Of a stretch of DNA of 64,000 nt, positions 41,052 to 47,070 are shown in pieces. The notes under the pieces were generated by a model that saw nothing but the letters and a program-made list of their open reading frames with translations, did no database searches and was not told the origin of the DNA. Position numbers and translations under genes: made by a program. The DNA lies in the NCBI GenBank assembly GCA_945868845.1, contig CAMBMS010000006.1, positions 62,001-126,000 on the forward strand, read 5' to 3'. The DNA comes from Asaia bogorensis (GTDB taxonomy: Bacteria > Pseudomonadota > Alphaproteobacteria > Acetobacterales > Acetobacteraceae). Every line of letters begins with the position of its first letter. The first letter of the stretch is position 1.

Positions 41052-42677
41052 ATGAAAGTCGGCGAAGCCATCGCGCACATTATGAAGGTCGAGGGGATGG
41101 ACATCCTCTGCGGCTATCCGGTTAATCATCTGATCGAATTCGCCGCCGCGCAGGACATCCGCCCGATCATGGTGCGCCAGGAACGTATCGGCATCCACAT
41201 GGCGGACGCTATCTCCCGCGTCACGTCCGGCAAGAAATTGGGCGCCTTCTGCATGCAGCACGGTCCAGGCGCGGAAAACGCCTATGGCGGCGTCGCTCAA
41301 TGTTATGGCGAATCCATTCCCGTGCTAATCTTGCCAATGGGCTACCCGCGCCATCTCGCGGGCATCGACCCGAATTTCAGCTCCACCACGCAAATGCGCG
41401 GCGTGACCAAATCGGCGGAGCAGATCATTCTGCCGAAGGAAACCCCAAACATCCTGCGCCGCGCGATGAGCAAGCTGCGCAATGGCCGGGGCGGCCCCTG
41501 CCTCGTTGAAATCCCCACCGATATCTGGAATGAGGAAATCGGCGATTTTACCTATACCCCGGTCGTCACAGCGAAGACCGCGCCCGACCCCGCCGATGTC
41601 CGCAAGGCCGCTACCGCGATTCTCGCCGCCAAACGCCCGCTGATCTATGCCGGCACCGGCGTGCATTGGGCAGAAGCCTGGCCACAGTTGAGAAAATTCG
41701 CAGAACTTCTGGGCGCTCCCGTTACCACCAGCCTCGGCGGCAAAAGTTCCTTCCCCGAAAATCACCCACTCTCGCTGGGCTCCGGCGGTAATGCCGTCTC
41801 CAAGCAGGTGCATCACTTCGTACAGAACGCCGATCTGATCATCGGCATCGGATGCTCGTTTACCGAAACAAATTTCGGCATCAAATTTCCGAATGGCAAA
41901 AAATTCGTCCACGCCACTTTAGATCCCGACCACCTTAATAAAGATGTGCGCGCAGAAGTCGGCCTGCTCGGCGATGCGGCATTAACCCTAGAAGCCCTTA
42001 TCGGCGAGCTTGGCCAAACCATCAAATCTCCGCGCGACCCCAGCCCAGTGGTGGCTGAAATCATCAAGCTGCGCGAGGAATTCATGGCACAATGGATGCC
42101 GCTGCTGACATCCAACGACGCGCCGCTGAACCCCTATCGCGTGATCTGGGATCTGATGCACACGGTGGATGGTAAGAACACCATCATCACCCATGACGCT
42201 GGCAGCCCGCGCGACCAGATTTCACCATTCTGGGTCTCCACCGAACCGCTTTCCTATATCGGCTGGGGCAAGACCACGCAGCTAGGCTACGGCCTCGGCC
42301 TCGCCATGGGCGCCAAGCTGGCAAAACCCGAAAAACTCTGCATTAACCTGTGGGGCGACGCCGCCATCGGCTTCACCGGCATGGACTTTGAAACGGCGGT
42401 GCGCGAGCGCATTCCCATCCTCTCTATCCTGCTGAACAATTTCTCCATGGCGATCGAGCTGAAAGTCATGCCGATCTCGACGGAAAAATACCGTTCGACC
42501 GATATCTCCGGCAACTACGCCGACATGGCGAAAGCCTTCGGCGGCTATGGCGAGCGCGTCACTCAGCCGGGCGACATCAAATCCGCCATCCAGCGCGGCA
42601 TCAAAGCCACGCAGGCCGGCCAGCCGGCCTTGCTGGAATTCATCACCAGCAAGGAAACTCGGGTTTCCAAGCTATAA
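41052..42677 (+). CDS. Thiamine pyrophosphate-dependent enzyme (acetolactate synthase-like)
   Basis: A 541-residue three-domain TPP enzyme. PYR domain, residues about 1-170, has the activating Glu in IMVRQERIGIHMADAISRV. The central domain has PLIYAGTGVHWAEAWPQL. The PP domain holds the Mg-TPP motif GDAAIGFTGMDFETAVRERI closing with LNNFSMA near residue 460. Such proteins are decarboxylases or ligases of 2-oxo acids; this subgroup is poorly characterised and often sits beside an enolase-superfamily enzyme and a D-2-hydroxyacid dehydrogenase, as here. GGGAG ribosome site. It is not the biosynthetic ilvB on context. Confidence 0.88.
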   Translation: MKVGEAIAHIMKVEGMDILCGYPVNHLIEFAAAQDIRPIMVRQERIGIHMADAISRVTSGKKLGAFCMQHGPGAENAYGGVAQCYGESIPVLILPMGYPRHLAGIDPNFSSTTQMRGVTKSAEQIILPKETPNILRRAMSKLRNGRGGPCLVEIPTDIWNEEIGDFTYTPVVTAKTAPDPADVRKAATAILAAKRPLIYAGTGVHWAEAWPQLRKFAELLGAPVTTSLGGKSSFPENHPLSLGSGGNAVSKQVHHFVQNADLIIGIGCSFTETNFGIKFPNGKKFVHATLDPDHLNKDVRAEVGLLGDAALTLEALIGELGQTIKSPRDPSPVVAEIIKLREEFMAQWMPLLTSNDAPLNPYRVIWDLMHTVDGKNTIITHDAGSPRDQISPFWVSTEPLSYIGWGKTTQLGYGLGLAMGAKLAKPEKLCINLWGDAAIGFTGMDFETAVRERIPILSILLNNFSMAIELKVMPISTEKYRSTDISGNYADMAKAFGGYGERVTQPGDIKSAIQRGIKATQAGQPALLEFITSKETRVSKL

Positions 42678-42812
42678 ATCGGATTGCGGCGGGGGTAATA
42701 TCCGCTCCCGCCGCCGCCGTACCGCCACGCCCGCGCCTGCGGGCTTCCACGACTTCCGCCTTGCGTTGGATCACCGTGGATCGTCGCCGACCAACCAGTA
42801 GGAGAACTCGGT

Positions 42813-43220
42813 ATGAAAGTCGCCCGCATGGACACGCTGCGTGCCGATGCTGGCTGGCGCATGTTCTCCTATCTGAAGATCACCACCGATGACGGCATCA
42901 TCGGCTGGTCAGAATTCACCGAAAGCTTTGATAATGCCGGCCTTGCCGACTCGCTGAAAATCGCAGCGATGGCGGAAGTGTATGAAATGAACCGTGCGCC
43001 GCATAATTTCTTCGGACATCTCTGCACAATTATCTCCGCGCATTTCTCCGCCAATATACCGAATTTTCGCGTCATGGAAATCGACATCGACAGCTGTCCC
43101 TGGCGCGATGAATTCTATCACGCCGTGCCGGAATTCGAAAATGGTGGCCTAAAATTTTCCACCTGCTCCGGCTGGAGCATGAACATCAAAGAAGCCGCCG
43201 TCCGCGCTCCCCCGAAGTAA
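42813..43220 (+). pseudogene. Enolase-superfamily (mandelate racemase type) gene with large in-frame internal deletion
   Basis: An open frame of 135 codons with start and ribosome site (GTAGGAG). Residues 1-45 (MKVARMDTLRADAGWRMFSY ... TTDDGIIGWSEFTESF) are the N-terminal capping domain of a mandelate racemase / muconate lactonizing enzyme. From about residue 58 (NRAPHNFFGHLCTIISAHFS ... PNFRVMEIDID, then PEFENGGLKFSTCSGWSMNI) it is the C-terminal capping part. The whole catalytic barrel with the Lys and metal-binding acidic residues, about 250 residues, is missing. It may still make a small protein but cannot be an enolase-type enzyme. It lies between the TPP enzyme and the dehydrogenase. 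Confidence 0.82.
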
Positions 43221-43241: not shown

Positions 43242-44297
43242 TTGGCCATATTCAAGATCGCCACCCCCGCCGGTGCCAGCTTCACCACCGCGGGCGGCGG
43301 CTATGACGATGAGATGAAACCGCTCCTCGACATGGGCATCGACGCCACCATTGTCGAAGGTCCCGTCGACGCTGCCAGATTCATCGCCTTCGCACAGGAC
43401 GCCGACGCGATCTATGCAAAAGGCATCCGCTTCACCAAAGCCATGATTGACGGATTGCCGGACCGGTGCCGCGCCATCGTGCTCGGCTCGGTCGGCGTCG
43501 ACAGCGTCGAAGTTACCGCCGCCACCGAGCGCGGCATACCGGTCACCAACTGCCCTGATACCTTTATCGAGGAAGTCGCAGATCATACGATGATGCTGCT
43601 GCTCTCTTCGTTCCGCCGCGCCATCGAACAGGACCGCATGGTGCGCGAAAATAAATGGCACGAAGGGCGCCCCGCACTGCTCAAAATTCCCCGCCTGATG
43701 GGCCAGACCCTCGGCCTCATCGCCTTCGGCCATGTCGCCCGCGCTGTCGCCAAGCGCGCCAAGCCCTTTGGCCTAAAAATTATCGCCTACGACCCGTTCA
43801 TCGAGGAGCTGGTCATGGTTGAGCACGGGGTCGTTCCCGCCACATTGGAAGAGGTACTCTCCCAATCTGATTTTATCTCCATGCACGCCCCCGCCACCCC
43901 AGAGGCCGAGGGCATGCTGATGGAAAAGCATTTTCGCATGATGAAACCCACCGCAGTTTTTATTAACTGCGGCCGTGGGCCGACCGTACAGGAATCCGCC
44001 CTCATTAAGGCACTAGCAGAAAATTGGATCGCCCATGCCGGTCTCGACGTTCTTGAAGTCGAACCCCCCGGCCATAACAACCCCATCCTGTCGATGCCGA
44101 ACGTCACCCTGTCTGCACACACGGCCTCGGCCTCCGCCCGCTTCGACCCTGCCCGCAAAACCCATGTCGGACGCGAGCTTAGCCTCGTGCTCTCCGGTAA
44201 ATGGCCGATGAGCTGCGTCAACCCCTCCGTGCTGCAAAACAGCACTAAACTCCGCCGCTGGCAGCCCATCTCCATGGAACGCGGCCCCAATAGCTGA
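43242..44297 (+). CDS. D-isomer-specific 2-hydroxyacid dehydrogenase (CtBP-like subgroup)
   Basis: A 351-residue NAD-dependent dehydrogenase of 2-hydroxy acids. The NAD loop is unusual, LGLIAFGHVARAVAKRA near residue 147, with Ala-Phe-Gly-His in place of GxGxxG's typical residues. Catalytic Arg lies in FINCGRGPTVQESAL near residue 245, Glu in LEVEPPGHNNP and His in SAHTASASAR near residue 290. The start is TTG at 43242, seven bases after an AGGAGA, and 21 bases after the deleted enolase-type gene. It would reduce or oxidise a 2-oxo acid linked to the adjacent TPP enzyme's pathway. Confidence 0.88.
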   Translation: MAIFKIATPAGASFTTAGGGYDDEMKPLLDMGIDATIVEGPVDAARFIAFAQDADAIYAKGIRFTKAMIDGLPDRCRAIVLGSVGVDSVEVTAATERGIPVTNCPDTFIEEVADHTMMLLLSSFRRAIEQDRMVRENKWHEGRPALLKIPRLMGQTLGLIAFGHVARAVAKRAKPFGLKIIAYDPFIEELVMVEHGVVPATLEEVLSQSDFISMHAPATPEAEGMLMEKHFRMMKPTAVFINCGRGPTVQESALIKALAENWIAHAGLDVLEVEPPGHNNPILSMPNVTLSAHTASASARFDPARKTHVGRELSLVLSGKWPMSCVNPSVLQNSTKLRRWQPISMERGPNS

Positions 44298-44432: not shown

Positions 44433-45047
44433 CTATGCCTTCACGCCCATACCCCGCATGAAGCGGTCGCGGATAAGGGAAGGGTCGCGTTCAGTGGTGG
44501 CGACGGGTTTGTTGTTGTTGATGCGGCAGCCGATCAACCAGGGGCCGTCTTCGGTGAGCGCGCGGTCGAGCAGTGCCTCGAAATGCGCTTCGTCCTCGGC
44601 CCATGTGGATTGTGCGATGCCGGCGCCGCGGGCGATGGCAACGATATCGGCGCCGAGTTCGCTAGCGGCCACCTGCCCGCCGGTGATCTGGTAGCCGCCA
44701 TTATCGAGGATGATGATGGTGAGGTTTCTCGGCGCTCGTGCCCCCACCGTGGCGAGGCAGCCGAGTTGCATCAGGATCGAGCCATCGCCTTCCAGAGCGA
44801 TGACTTTGCGCGCCGGTTGCGCAATGGCGACGCCGAGCGCGATCGGCACGGCAAGGCCCATGCTGCCGAGCATGTAGAAATTTTGCGGCCGGTGGCCGAC
44901 AGCCCAGAGATCAAAATTGGACCAGCCGATGCCGCCGATCACGGCTTCCTCGCGCTTCAGTTTCCCGACCATGCGCTGGGTCAGGTTGAAGCGGTCCATC
45001 ACCTTAGCGTCGGAGCGGACCATCCGTTGATTTTGGTTTCCCGACAT
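44433..45047 (-). CDS. TPP-dependent decarboxylase, PP-domain subunit (sulfopyruvate/phosphonopyruvate decarboxylase beta-like)
   Basis: A 204-residue protein equal to the pyrophosphate-binding domain alone. The Mg-TPP motif reads ALEGDGSILMQLGCLATVGARAPRN and closes with IIILDNGGYQITGG (GDG to NNG pattern) near residues 95-125; VGHRPQNFYMLGSMGLAVPIALG precedes it. Its partner with the PYR domain is encoded 4 bases upstream, so the two subunits form a split enzyme like ComD/ComE sulfopyruvate decarboxylase. The start at 45047 follows AAGGAG. The substrate is presumably a 3-carbon 2-oxo acid; sulfo or phospho specificity is not provable here. Confidence 0.87.
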   Translation of the reverse strand: MSGNQNQRMVRSDAKVMDRFNLTQRMVGKLKREEAVIGGIGWSNFDLWAVGHRPQNFYMLGSMGLAVPIALGVAIAQPARKVIALEGDGSILMQLGCLATVGARAPRNLTIIILDNGGYQITGGQVAASELGADIVAIARGAGIAQSTWAEDEAHFEALLDRALTEDGPWLIGCRINNNKPVATTERDPSLIRDRFMRGMGVKA

Positions 45048-45051
45048 CACG

Positions 45052-45579
45052 CTACTCCTTGAACACCTTGCCGCCGGTGAGCAGGGGGGAAAGAATGAAA
45101 GTAGCCGGCTGTTGCGTGGCCACAGCCTGGCGGATAGAGCGGTCAATGATGAATTCCACCTCGTCCACCCGGGTGAGAGTATGATGTTCCATCGCTAGGC
45201 TGTCGAGACTGGGGCGCATCGTACGCGCCACCAGGGTCTGGCCGATATTGAATTCTCCCAAGGTACCACGTTCGGAGACCATGAGAAGAATAGGAATCTG
45301 AAACGGGACCGGCAACGAGGCCAGCACGTTCGGCAGGGTGGCAAAGCCCGAGGTTTGCATCAACACAATCGCGTGCATGCCCGCCATCCAGGCGCCGCAG
45401 GCGATGCCGACGGCTTCTTCTTCCCGCGTGCTGGTGAAAACGGTGAAGAACGGATCGGTCTCCAGGAGGGCGATCAGCGGACGCAGGACATTATCCGGTA
45501 CATACGGTACTAGCCGCACGTTATGCGCGCGCAGCACGTCACGGGTAATTTCAAACCAGGCGCGGGTTTCCCCTGCCAT
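45052..45579 (-). CDS. TPP-dependent decarboxylase, PYR-domain subunit (sulfopyruvate/phosphonopyruvate decarboxylase alpha-like)
   Basis: A 175-residue PYR-domain protein. It carries the activating Glu in TSTREEEAVGIACGAWMAGM near residue 55, MQTSGFATLPNVLASLPVPF and LLMVSERGTLGEFNIGQ, all standard for the alpha subunit of sulfopyruvate/phosphonopyruvate decarboxylases. The frame is open to 45846 but overlaps the divergent gene there; the ATG at 45579 gives the family N-terminus. It is co-transcribed with the PP subunit and shares a 93-base divergent promoter region with tcuA. Confidence 0.87.
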   Translation of the reverse strand: MAGETRAWFEITRDVLRAHNVRLVPYVPDNVLRPLIALLETDPFFTVFTSTREEEAVGIACGAWMAGMHAIVLMQTSGFATLPNVLASLPVPFQIPILLMVSERGTLGEFNIGQTLVARTMRPSLDSLAMEHHTLTRVDEVEFIIDRSIRQAVATQQPATFILSPLLTGGKVFKE

Positions 45580-45672: not shown

Positions 45673-47070
45673 ATGGTCGATCTGACGCAGGTTTACGATG
45701 TGGTGGTGGTGGGTGGCGGTAACGCGGCGCTTTGCGCGGCGATCACGGCACGGCAGGCGGGTTGCTCCGTGCTGGTGCTGGAACACGCGCCGAAATCTAT
45801 GCGTGGCGGCAATAGCCGCCATACTCGAAATCTGCGCGCCATGCACACCACGCCCACAGGTGTGCTGACGGACACCTATCTGGAAGATGAGTATTGGGAC
45901 GATCTGCTGCGCGTCACCGGCGGGCAGACGGATGAAGGGCTGGCGCGGATGACCATTCGTGCCTCGGCCGCGGTGTTCAAATGGATGCTGGATTCGGGTG
46001 TACGATTCCAGCCCTCGCTTTCCGGCACGCTATCGCTTTCGCGCACTAATGCGTTCTTTCTTGGTGGTGGCAAGGCGTTGCTGAATGCGCATTACATGAC
46101 CGCTCAACGGTTGGGCATCGATATTCTGTATGATACCGAAGTCATACTCCTAAACATGGATGATGGTTTTGTACGTTCCGCCACGTTGACCTGCCATGGG
46201 TTTCCGGAAACCGTGCGCGGCAAGGTGTTTGTGGCATCGTCCGGTGGTTTCCAGGCCAATCTGGAATGGCTGAAGCATTACTGGGGCGAGGCAGCGGATA
46301 ATTTTCTCATCCGCGGCACGCCTTATAATAAGGGCCGGGTGCTGAAAAATCTGCTGGACCAGGGCGTGGCGGCGGTCGGAGATCCGACGCAGTTCCATGC
46401 CGTGGCCATTGATGGCCGCGCGCCAAAATTCGATGGCGGCATCGTCACGCGGCTCGATTGCGTGCCGTTCAGCGTAGTAGTGAACAAGGACGGCAAACGT
46501 TTCTATGATGAAGGTGAGGATGTGTGGCCGAAGCGCTATGCCATCTGGGGTCGGCTGGTGGCGCAGCAACCGGACCAGGTTGCCTATTCGATCATCGATT
46601 CAAAATCGACGACGTTGTTCATGCCATCGGTGTTTCCCGCCATCGCCGCGCAGACGATTGGCGAACTTGCGGAGCGGCTCGGACTTGATCCCCCGACAGT
46701 CATCGATACGATAGCGCAATACAACGCCGCCGTTCGTGCGGGAAAATTCGATAGTACAAAATTGGATGAATGCCGCACAGAAGGACTTGCTCCGCCAAAG
46801 ACGCATTGGGCGCGCAAGATCGACCAGGGGCCATTCTATGGCTATCCGCTGCGCCCGGGTATCACGTTTACTTATCTCGGCGTGCGGGTGAATGAACGGG
46901 CGCAGGTGCTGATGGACAATGGCGCGCCGGCGGCCAATCTGTTTGCGTCCGGTGAGATTATGGCTGGAAATATTCTAGGCAAGGGCTATCTCGCGGGGTT
47001 TGGTATGACGATCGGCACAGTATTTGGCCGCATCGCAGGGGCGGAGGCGGCAAAGCATGTCCGAAATTGA
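45673..47070 (+). CDS. tcuA: FAD-dependent tricarballylate dehydrogenase TcuA
   Basis: A 465-residue flavoprotein of the fumarate reductase / succinate dehydrogenase group. The dinucleotide loop is VVVVGGGNAALCAAITARQAG near residue 10, followed by the His-containing RGGNSRHTRNLR stretch and ASSGGFQANLEW. The C-terminus has LFASGEIMAGNILGKGYLAGFGMTIGTVFGRIAG. TcuA oxidises tricarballylate to cis-aconitate, passing electrons to TcuB in Salmonella. The presence of a tcuB-type gene overlapping by 14 bases supports the name. A related 2- or 3-carboxy acid substrate is possible, since no tcuC transporter or tcuR regulator is adjacent. Confidence 0.9.
   Translation: MVDLTQVYDVVVVGGGNAALCAAITARQAGCSVLVLEHAPKSMRGGNSRHTRNLRAMHTTPTGVLTDTYLEDEYWDDLLRVTGGQTDEGLARMTIRASAAVFKWMLDSGVRFQPSLSGTLSLSRTNAFFLGGGKALLNAHYMTAQRLGIDILYDTEVILLNMDDGFVRSATLTCHGFPETVRGKVFVASSGGFQANLEWLKHYWGEAADNFLIRGTPYNKGRVLKNLLDQGVAAVGDPTQFHAVAIDGRAPKFDGGIVTRLDCVPFSVVVNKDGKRFYDEGEDVWPKRYAIWGRLVAQQPDQVAYSIIDSKSTTLFMPSVFPAIAAQTIGELAERLGLDPPTVIDTIAQYNAAVRAGKFDSTKLDECRTEGLAPPKTHWARKIDQGPFYGYPLRPGITFTYLGVRVNERAQVLMDNGAPAANLFASGEIMAGNILGKGYLAGFGMTIGTVFGRIAGAEAAKHVRN

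Follow-up and report, generated by a model that had tools for sequence, protein, structure and literature searches.

Bacterial pseudogenes can arise by deletion between short direct repeats, and such cases combine one internal deletion, similar stretches at both ends and a relaxed constraint afterwards. The gene described here, from a 64,000-nt stretch of Asaia bogorensis DNA (the whole of which we call the window), appears to share these properties, but differs in that its reading frame is kept, so that an annotator would call a gene. As a sequence relative it belongs to the enolase superfamily, MR/MLE type. A working MR/MLE enzyme carries three acidic metal ligands on barrel strands 3–5 and a lysine motif on strand 2. 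The closest whole counterparts are orthologues from Acetobacteraceae (e.g. L133, L080 and L082) and the protein of Burkholderia xenovorans represented by PDB entries 2OO6/3GO2. Both share with the window copy the N-terminal 46 and the C-terminal 94 residues, and the orthologues also its place before a gene for a 2-hydroxyacid dehydrogenase. However, these whole proteins have ∼254 more codons, the metal-ligand positions, the lysine motif and a full barrel, all of which the window copy lacks. The orthologue of Rhodopila globiformis (L112, the same gene as L071) is likewise interrupted, in this case by an in-frame stop at codon 208 and not by a deletion. This gene is otherwise whole, and the stop may be a sequencing error or show that the enzyme was lost independently a second time.

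Parts kept and lost in the remnant

The locus consists of the following features.

41052..42677, + strand: gene for a TPP-dependent enzyme, open and full-length (NCBIfam PRK06154, above cut-off)
42678..42812, + strand: spacer of 135 nt with a GC-rich hairpin (single copy in the genome; fold not significantly above shuffled sequence)
42813..43220, + strand: remnant ORF of 135 aa, from an enolase-superfamily (MR/MLE type) gene by Pfam and structure match
42813..42950, + strand: N-terminal part, approximately residues 1–46 of the whole protein, with three N-terminal cap strands (alignment and model of a whole orthologue)
42938..42951, + strand: deletion junction (base-by-base comparison with 59 orthologues)
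42951..43220, + strand: C-terminal part with barrel helix 6, strand 7 including the PHN histidine, helix 7, strand 8 and tail (alignment and model of a whole orthologue)
43242..44297, + strand: gene for a D-2-hydroxyacid dehydrogenase, open and full-length, with TTG start and its own AGGAG ribosome site (profile and sequence inspection)

The remnant ORF opens with ATG and has an AGGAG ribosome site ahead of it, in line with the preliminary description, in which both start codon and ribosome site were considered to be kept. Its nearest solved structures are 2OO6/3GO2, of which 2OO6 is annotated as a putative epimerase. The phmmer match to 2OO6 (whole-sequence E 2.4e-40) falls into two pieces, with query residues 1–46 aligned to residues 3–48 and query residues 43–135 to residues 297–390. 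Pfam detected only the C-terminal domain MR_MLE_C, at profile positions 131–218 of 219 (E 4.1e-12, 46.7 bits versus a cut-off of 29.4). By these alignments the ORF joins in frame the two ends of an enolase-superfamily protein of ∼390 aa, namely its first ∼46 and its last ∼94 residues. That both ends of such a gene are joined in frame with the middle lost had been claimed before, and the two-piece match to 2OO6 as well as the gene lengths in relatives agree with it.

The anatomy of the two parts was read from the predicted model of the whole orthologue L014 (pLDDT 76.0), which matches 2OO6 with a TM of 0.89. In L014 numbering, the N-terminal cap elements that are kept comprise strands 3–12, 17–25 and 30–35, while the C-terminal part retains helix 298–307, strand 312–315 followed by the PHN histidine, helix 323–335, strand 339–345 and the tail. 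According to the alignment and the L014 model, the window copy has lost most of the barrel as well as the helices of the cap. The locus had been pictured earlier as a pair of caps from which the entire barrel was missing. The missing middle, some two thirds of the gene, stands, but the C-terminal part is not a cap and consists of the final quarter of the barrel, from helix 6 to strand 8, plus the tail, and the N-terminal cap is itself mostly gone, with three strands left. The columns of L014 K162, D219, E245 and E269, which we take to be the lysine-motif and acidic metal-ligand positions, all lie inside the missing stretch of the alignment. Judged by alignment, the remnant has neither the metal ligands nor the lysine motif, and most of both the N-terminal cap and the barrel fold is absent. 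From knowledge of the family we infer that its product is not a working enzyme of the enolase superfamily. The model of the window protein (P0001) reached a pLDDT of 48.7 versus 76.0 for L014, the alignments behind both models being shallow (14 and 13 sequences). Compared with the PDB, the window-protein model gave no match at E 0.001 or below; the best one, at 6.9e-3 over 43 columns, was to the same family.

The whole gene in relatives and the deletion junction

A search of relatives for the full-length gene had been proposed as a check of the preliminary description, and the full-length gene is present there. In the 79 loci that were measured from the best 80 of 415 relatives (L124, cut before the N-terminal part, was dropped), the gene is longer than the window copy by 762 nt (254 codons) in 73 loci, by 765 nt in three, by 771 nt in two and by 759 nt in one. 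A second set of 53 rows, in which some genes were fetched twice and two rows are paralogues from the same genome, gave inter-piece distances 756–774 nt longer than in the window. No short form was found among the 79 loci or the 53 rows. Across the family, 115 of 397 genomes, one of them that of the window, have a match at E 1e-10, and across the order 89 of 395 genomes have one at E 1e-20. Short open frames among the matches listed are due to contig ends (G258, G184, G060, G291 and G261), a stop (G406) or a frameshift (G188). Three of 57 plasmid records cover at least 80% of the query in one place, and all three are whole genes of ∼410 aa. A conserved short protein family of the same size, which had been named earlier as a finding that would speak against a reduced gene, was looked for, and we reject it, since no relative of this size occurs in the 79 loci, the 53 rows or the genome matches listed. 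With 762 nt missing compared to most relatives, the window copy is by sequence disrupted relative to its intact orthologues, as a pseudogene would be. A more distant copy in another genome (L164:1857-2997) is split by a frameshift near codons 96–105.

The comparison with the 59 orthologues placed the junction at 42938–42951, slightly to the left of the interval 42945–42990 proposed before. In the orthologues, bases 42938–42949 are present to the left as well as to the right of the missing stretch and are not assignable to one side, while base 42950 is found only on the left (71% versus 0% of the 59 orthologues) and base 42951 only on the right (80% versus 0%). The orthologues encode, in the same frame, mostly Gly-Leu-Ser/Ala on the left and mostly Gly-Leu-Ala/Gly-Glu on the right. 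Since both look-alike stretches lie in one frame, a deletion between them stays in frame. An exact 7-nt repeat is present at the junction in 9 of the 59 orthologues, compared to 0.7% of other positions at that distance, and an exact repeat of 8 nt or more in none of them; in the junction register, a mean of 9.4 of 18 bases match versus 5.9 at other positions with the same distance. Because both sides encode Gly-Leu anyway, the repeat is a likely, though unproven, cause of the deletion.

The same junction bears on the question whether the whole gene exists in the genome and its middle was lost in assembly, or whether the deletion is present in some cells only. Such an artefact is favoured by the fact that no further genome of this species turned up and that the other genome of the genus (85% complete) has distant matches only (best E 6.2e-6). 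Nevertheless we consider it very unlikely, since the look-alike stretches are short and imperfect, with a longest exact run of 7 nt in the 59 orthologues that is presumably too short to collapse an assembly, since the missing middle is found on no other contig, paralogues aside, and since a recent artefact would leave the relaxed constraint of the remnant (see below) unexplained. Repeat-driven assembly collapse was rejected on the basis of this 7-nt maximum and of a search that found no tandem repeat near the locus.

Within its own genome, the missing middle occurs in close form only in the C16 and C5 paralogues. Five ORFs were scanned around each: near the C16 copy we found an HpcH/HpaI aldolase, parts of an ABC transporter and a MORN protein, and near the C5 copy two CoA-transferase genes, a short-chain dehydrogenase and a MoCF protein. 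The C16 copy also has a distant hydroxyacid dehydrogenase (36% identity) next to it, encoded on the opposite strand. In a tree of the 79 loci without L112, the window copy falls inside the clade of 73 tips that unites all dehydrogenase-linked loci and also contains 12 other loci without this link, with branch support of 0.78–0.94 along its path, while the C16 paralogue is placed outside this clade together with L159, L156, L140 and L150. The two whole paralogues could, but need not, supply the lost step.

Operon context, constraint and the open frame

The remnant is located between the genes for the TPP enzyme (41052–42677) and the 2-hydroxyacid dehydrogenase (43242–44297), which is the operon position given in the preliminary description. 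In 11 of the 16 neighbourhoods the whole gene is directly followed by that for the dehydrogenase; the remaining five comprise two paralogues from the same genome, two second copies and a locus from a different family. The dehydrogenase gene lies within 250 nt of the whole gene in 61 of the 79 loci, some of the 79 ending soon after the gene. A TPP gene is inside the fetched stretch in 10 of the 79 loci and directly upstream in three (L133, L090 and L127), with spacers of 16, 45 and 116 nt in these relatives of the same gene order versus 135 nt in the window. The window spacer (42678–42812) was rejected as a mobile or structured element, as it is single copy and its fold has a z of −0.82 versus shuffles. 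Between 42600 and 43300 no terminator-like site was found, and sigma-70-like sites number 2 versus 0.4 in shuffles; a site of this kind at 42906–42935 on the + strand, inside the remnant and upstream of the dehydrogenase gene, is a consensus match only. Further downstream, two genes on the − strand (44433–45579) resemble those for sulfopyruvate decarboxylase (beta and alpha subunit) and score under the cut-offs of these models, with the beta-like gene above the cut-off of PRK06163 (hypothetical protein). A gene for the tricarballylate dehydrogenase TcuA at 45673–47070 is above cut-off.

The rate of change in the remnant was compared with that of its neighbour in 56 of the 59 orthologues (L084, L112 and L142 were dropped, one protein being too short); the test comprises 135 columns and one sequence, and the nearest relative compared is from another genus. 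Of the 68 columns that are at least 95% conserved in the others, 8 are changed in the window copy, a share that none of the 56 orthologues reaches (mean 1.0%, maximum 8.7%). E46D, among these eight, is the join itself; without it, 7 of 67 (10.4%) remain. The window dehydrogenase differs at 3 of 153 conserved columns (2.0%; mean 1.2%, maximum 7.6%), and 12 of the 56 are as high. Dividing the gene distance by the dehydrogenase distance gives 1.42 by identity, compared to 0.95 ± 0.10 (maximum 1.18) for the 56 orthologues, and 1.36 by tree, compared to 0.92 ± 0.12 (maximum 1.26). The terminal branch of the window measures 0.367 for the remnant versus 0.144 for the dehydrogenase. Several observations speak against decay: the root-to-tip length of the window copy (0.443; midpoint-rooted tree, retained columns) is matched by the longest among the other tips, its dehydrogenase, too, sits on a long branch (0.144 versus a mean of 0.050 for the others), the remnant has neither stop nor frameshift and an intact start codon and ribosome site, and 60 of the 68 highly conserved columns are unchanged, the PHN histidine among them. 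The sequence comparison suggests a mildly relaxed constraint on the remnant relative to both its orthologues and its neighbour, as expected for a pseudogene, with the root-to-tip length alone not outstanding.

By arithmetic, the remnant has acquired between roughly 15 extra residue changes, as estimated from identity, and 32, as estimated from the terminal branch. A simulated neutral frame was still open with a probability of 0.59 at 15 changes and 0.29 at 30 (substitutions only, 400 runs per point; indels would lower these figures). With a neutral openness of about 0.3–0.6, the open frame needs neither function nor selection nor coupling. The preliminary description had suggested that translation of the downstream gene may still depend on the remnant, which could account for the open frame. 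Selection for dehydrogenase translation, by coupling or by avoidance of polarity, could indeed preserve the frame of an otherwise useless peptide, and the spacing of 21 nt in the window, the short gaps in 44 of 62 relatives (no more than 50 nt, counted from where the matched part ends) and the in-frame deletion are consistent with this. However, the dehydrogenase gene has its own ribosome site, the gaps in the 62 relatives range from 15 to 182 nt and once reach 835 nt, and an in-frame join has a one-in-three chance, or is forced if the look-alike stretches share the frame. Together with the neutral openness, this makes the suggestion dispensable, and selection of this kind appears unlikely to us; translational coupling of the dehydrogenase to the remnant is possible, but found no support.

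The retention of open frame, ribosome site and position, together with the 60 unchanged conserved columns, could also mean that the 135-residue fusion is expressed and maintained in a non-catalytic role, as a partner or a regulator of the enzymes still encoded in the operon. If this were true, a new small protein would have been born from one in-frame deletion. Such a new use is highly improbable, since the 79 loci and the 53 rows contain no short relative, the divergence is above expectation, the predicted model has no confident fold and an open frame is unsurprising by chance.

Proposed origin and consequences for annotation

We propose with good confidence, based on the comparison with whole relatives, that a whole gene was gutted by one in-frame deletion and decayed afterwards, and that it now represents a pseudogene in an otherwise sound operon. 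The genes for TPP enzyme and dehydrogenase would once have flanked a whole enolase-superfamily gene of ∼390 aa. Two short look-alike stretches in this gene, each in frame 0, would then have marked the ends of a single deletion of ∼762 nt that joined codon 46 to a position ∼254 codons further on. The deletion itself emerges from the comparison, while slippage or annealing is the mechanism that we infer. Along with most of its fold, the product would have lost the lysine motif and the three acidic metal-ligand positions, and the remnant would have drifted under relaxed constraint while the flanking genes stayed full-length. Its frame would still be open because few substitutions have accumulated.

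Beyond the pitfall for annotation, this would be ordinary gene decay. The locus is a clean case in which automatic annotation may count a gene as intact due to its start, ribosome site, open frame and family match, although it presumably cannot encode the enzyme. Pathway predictions for this genome could thus wrongly credit the lost step to the remnant.
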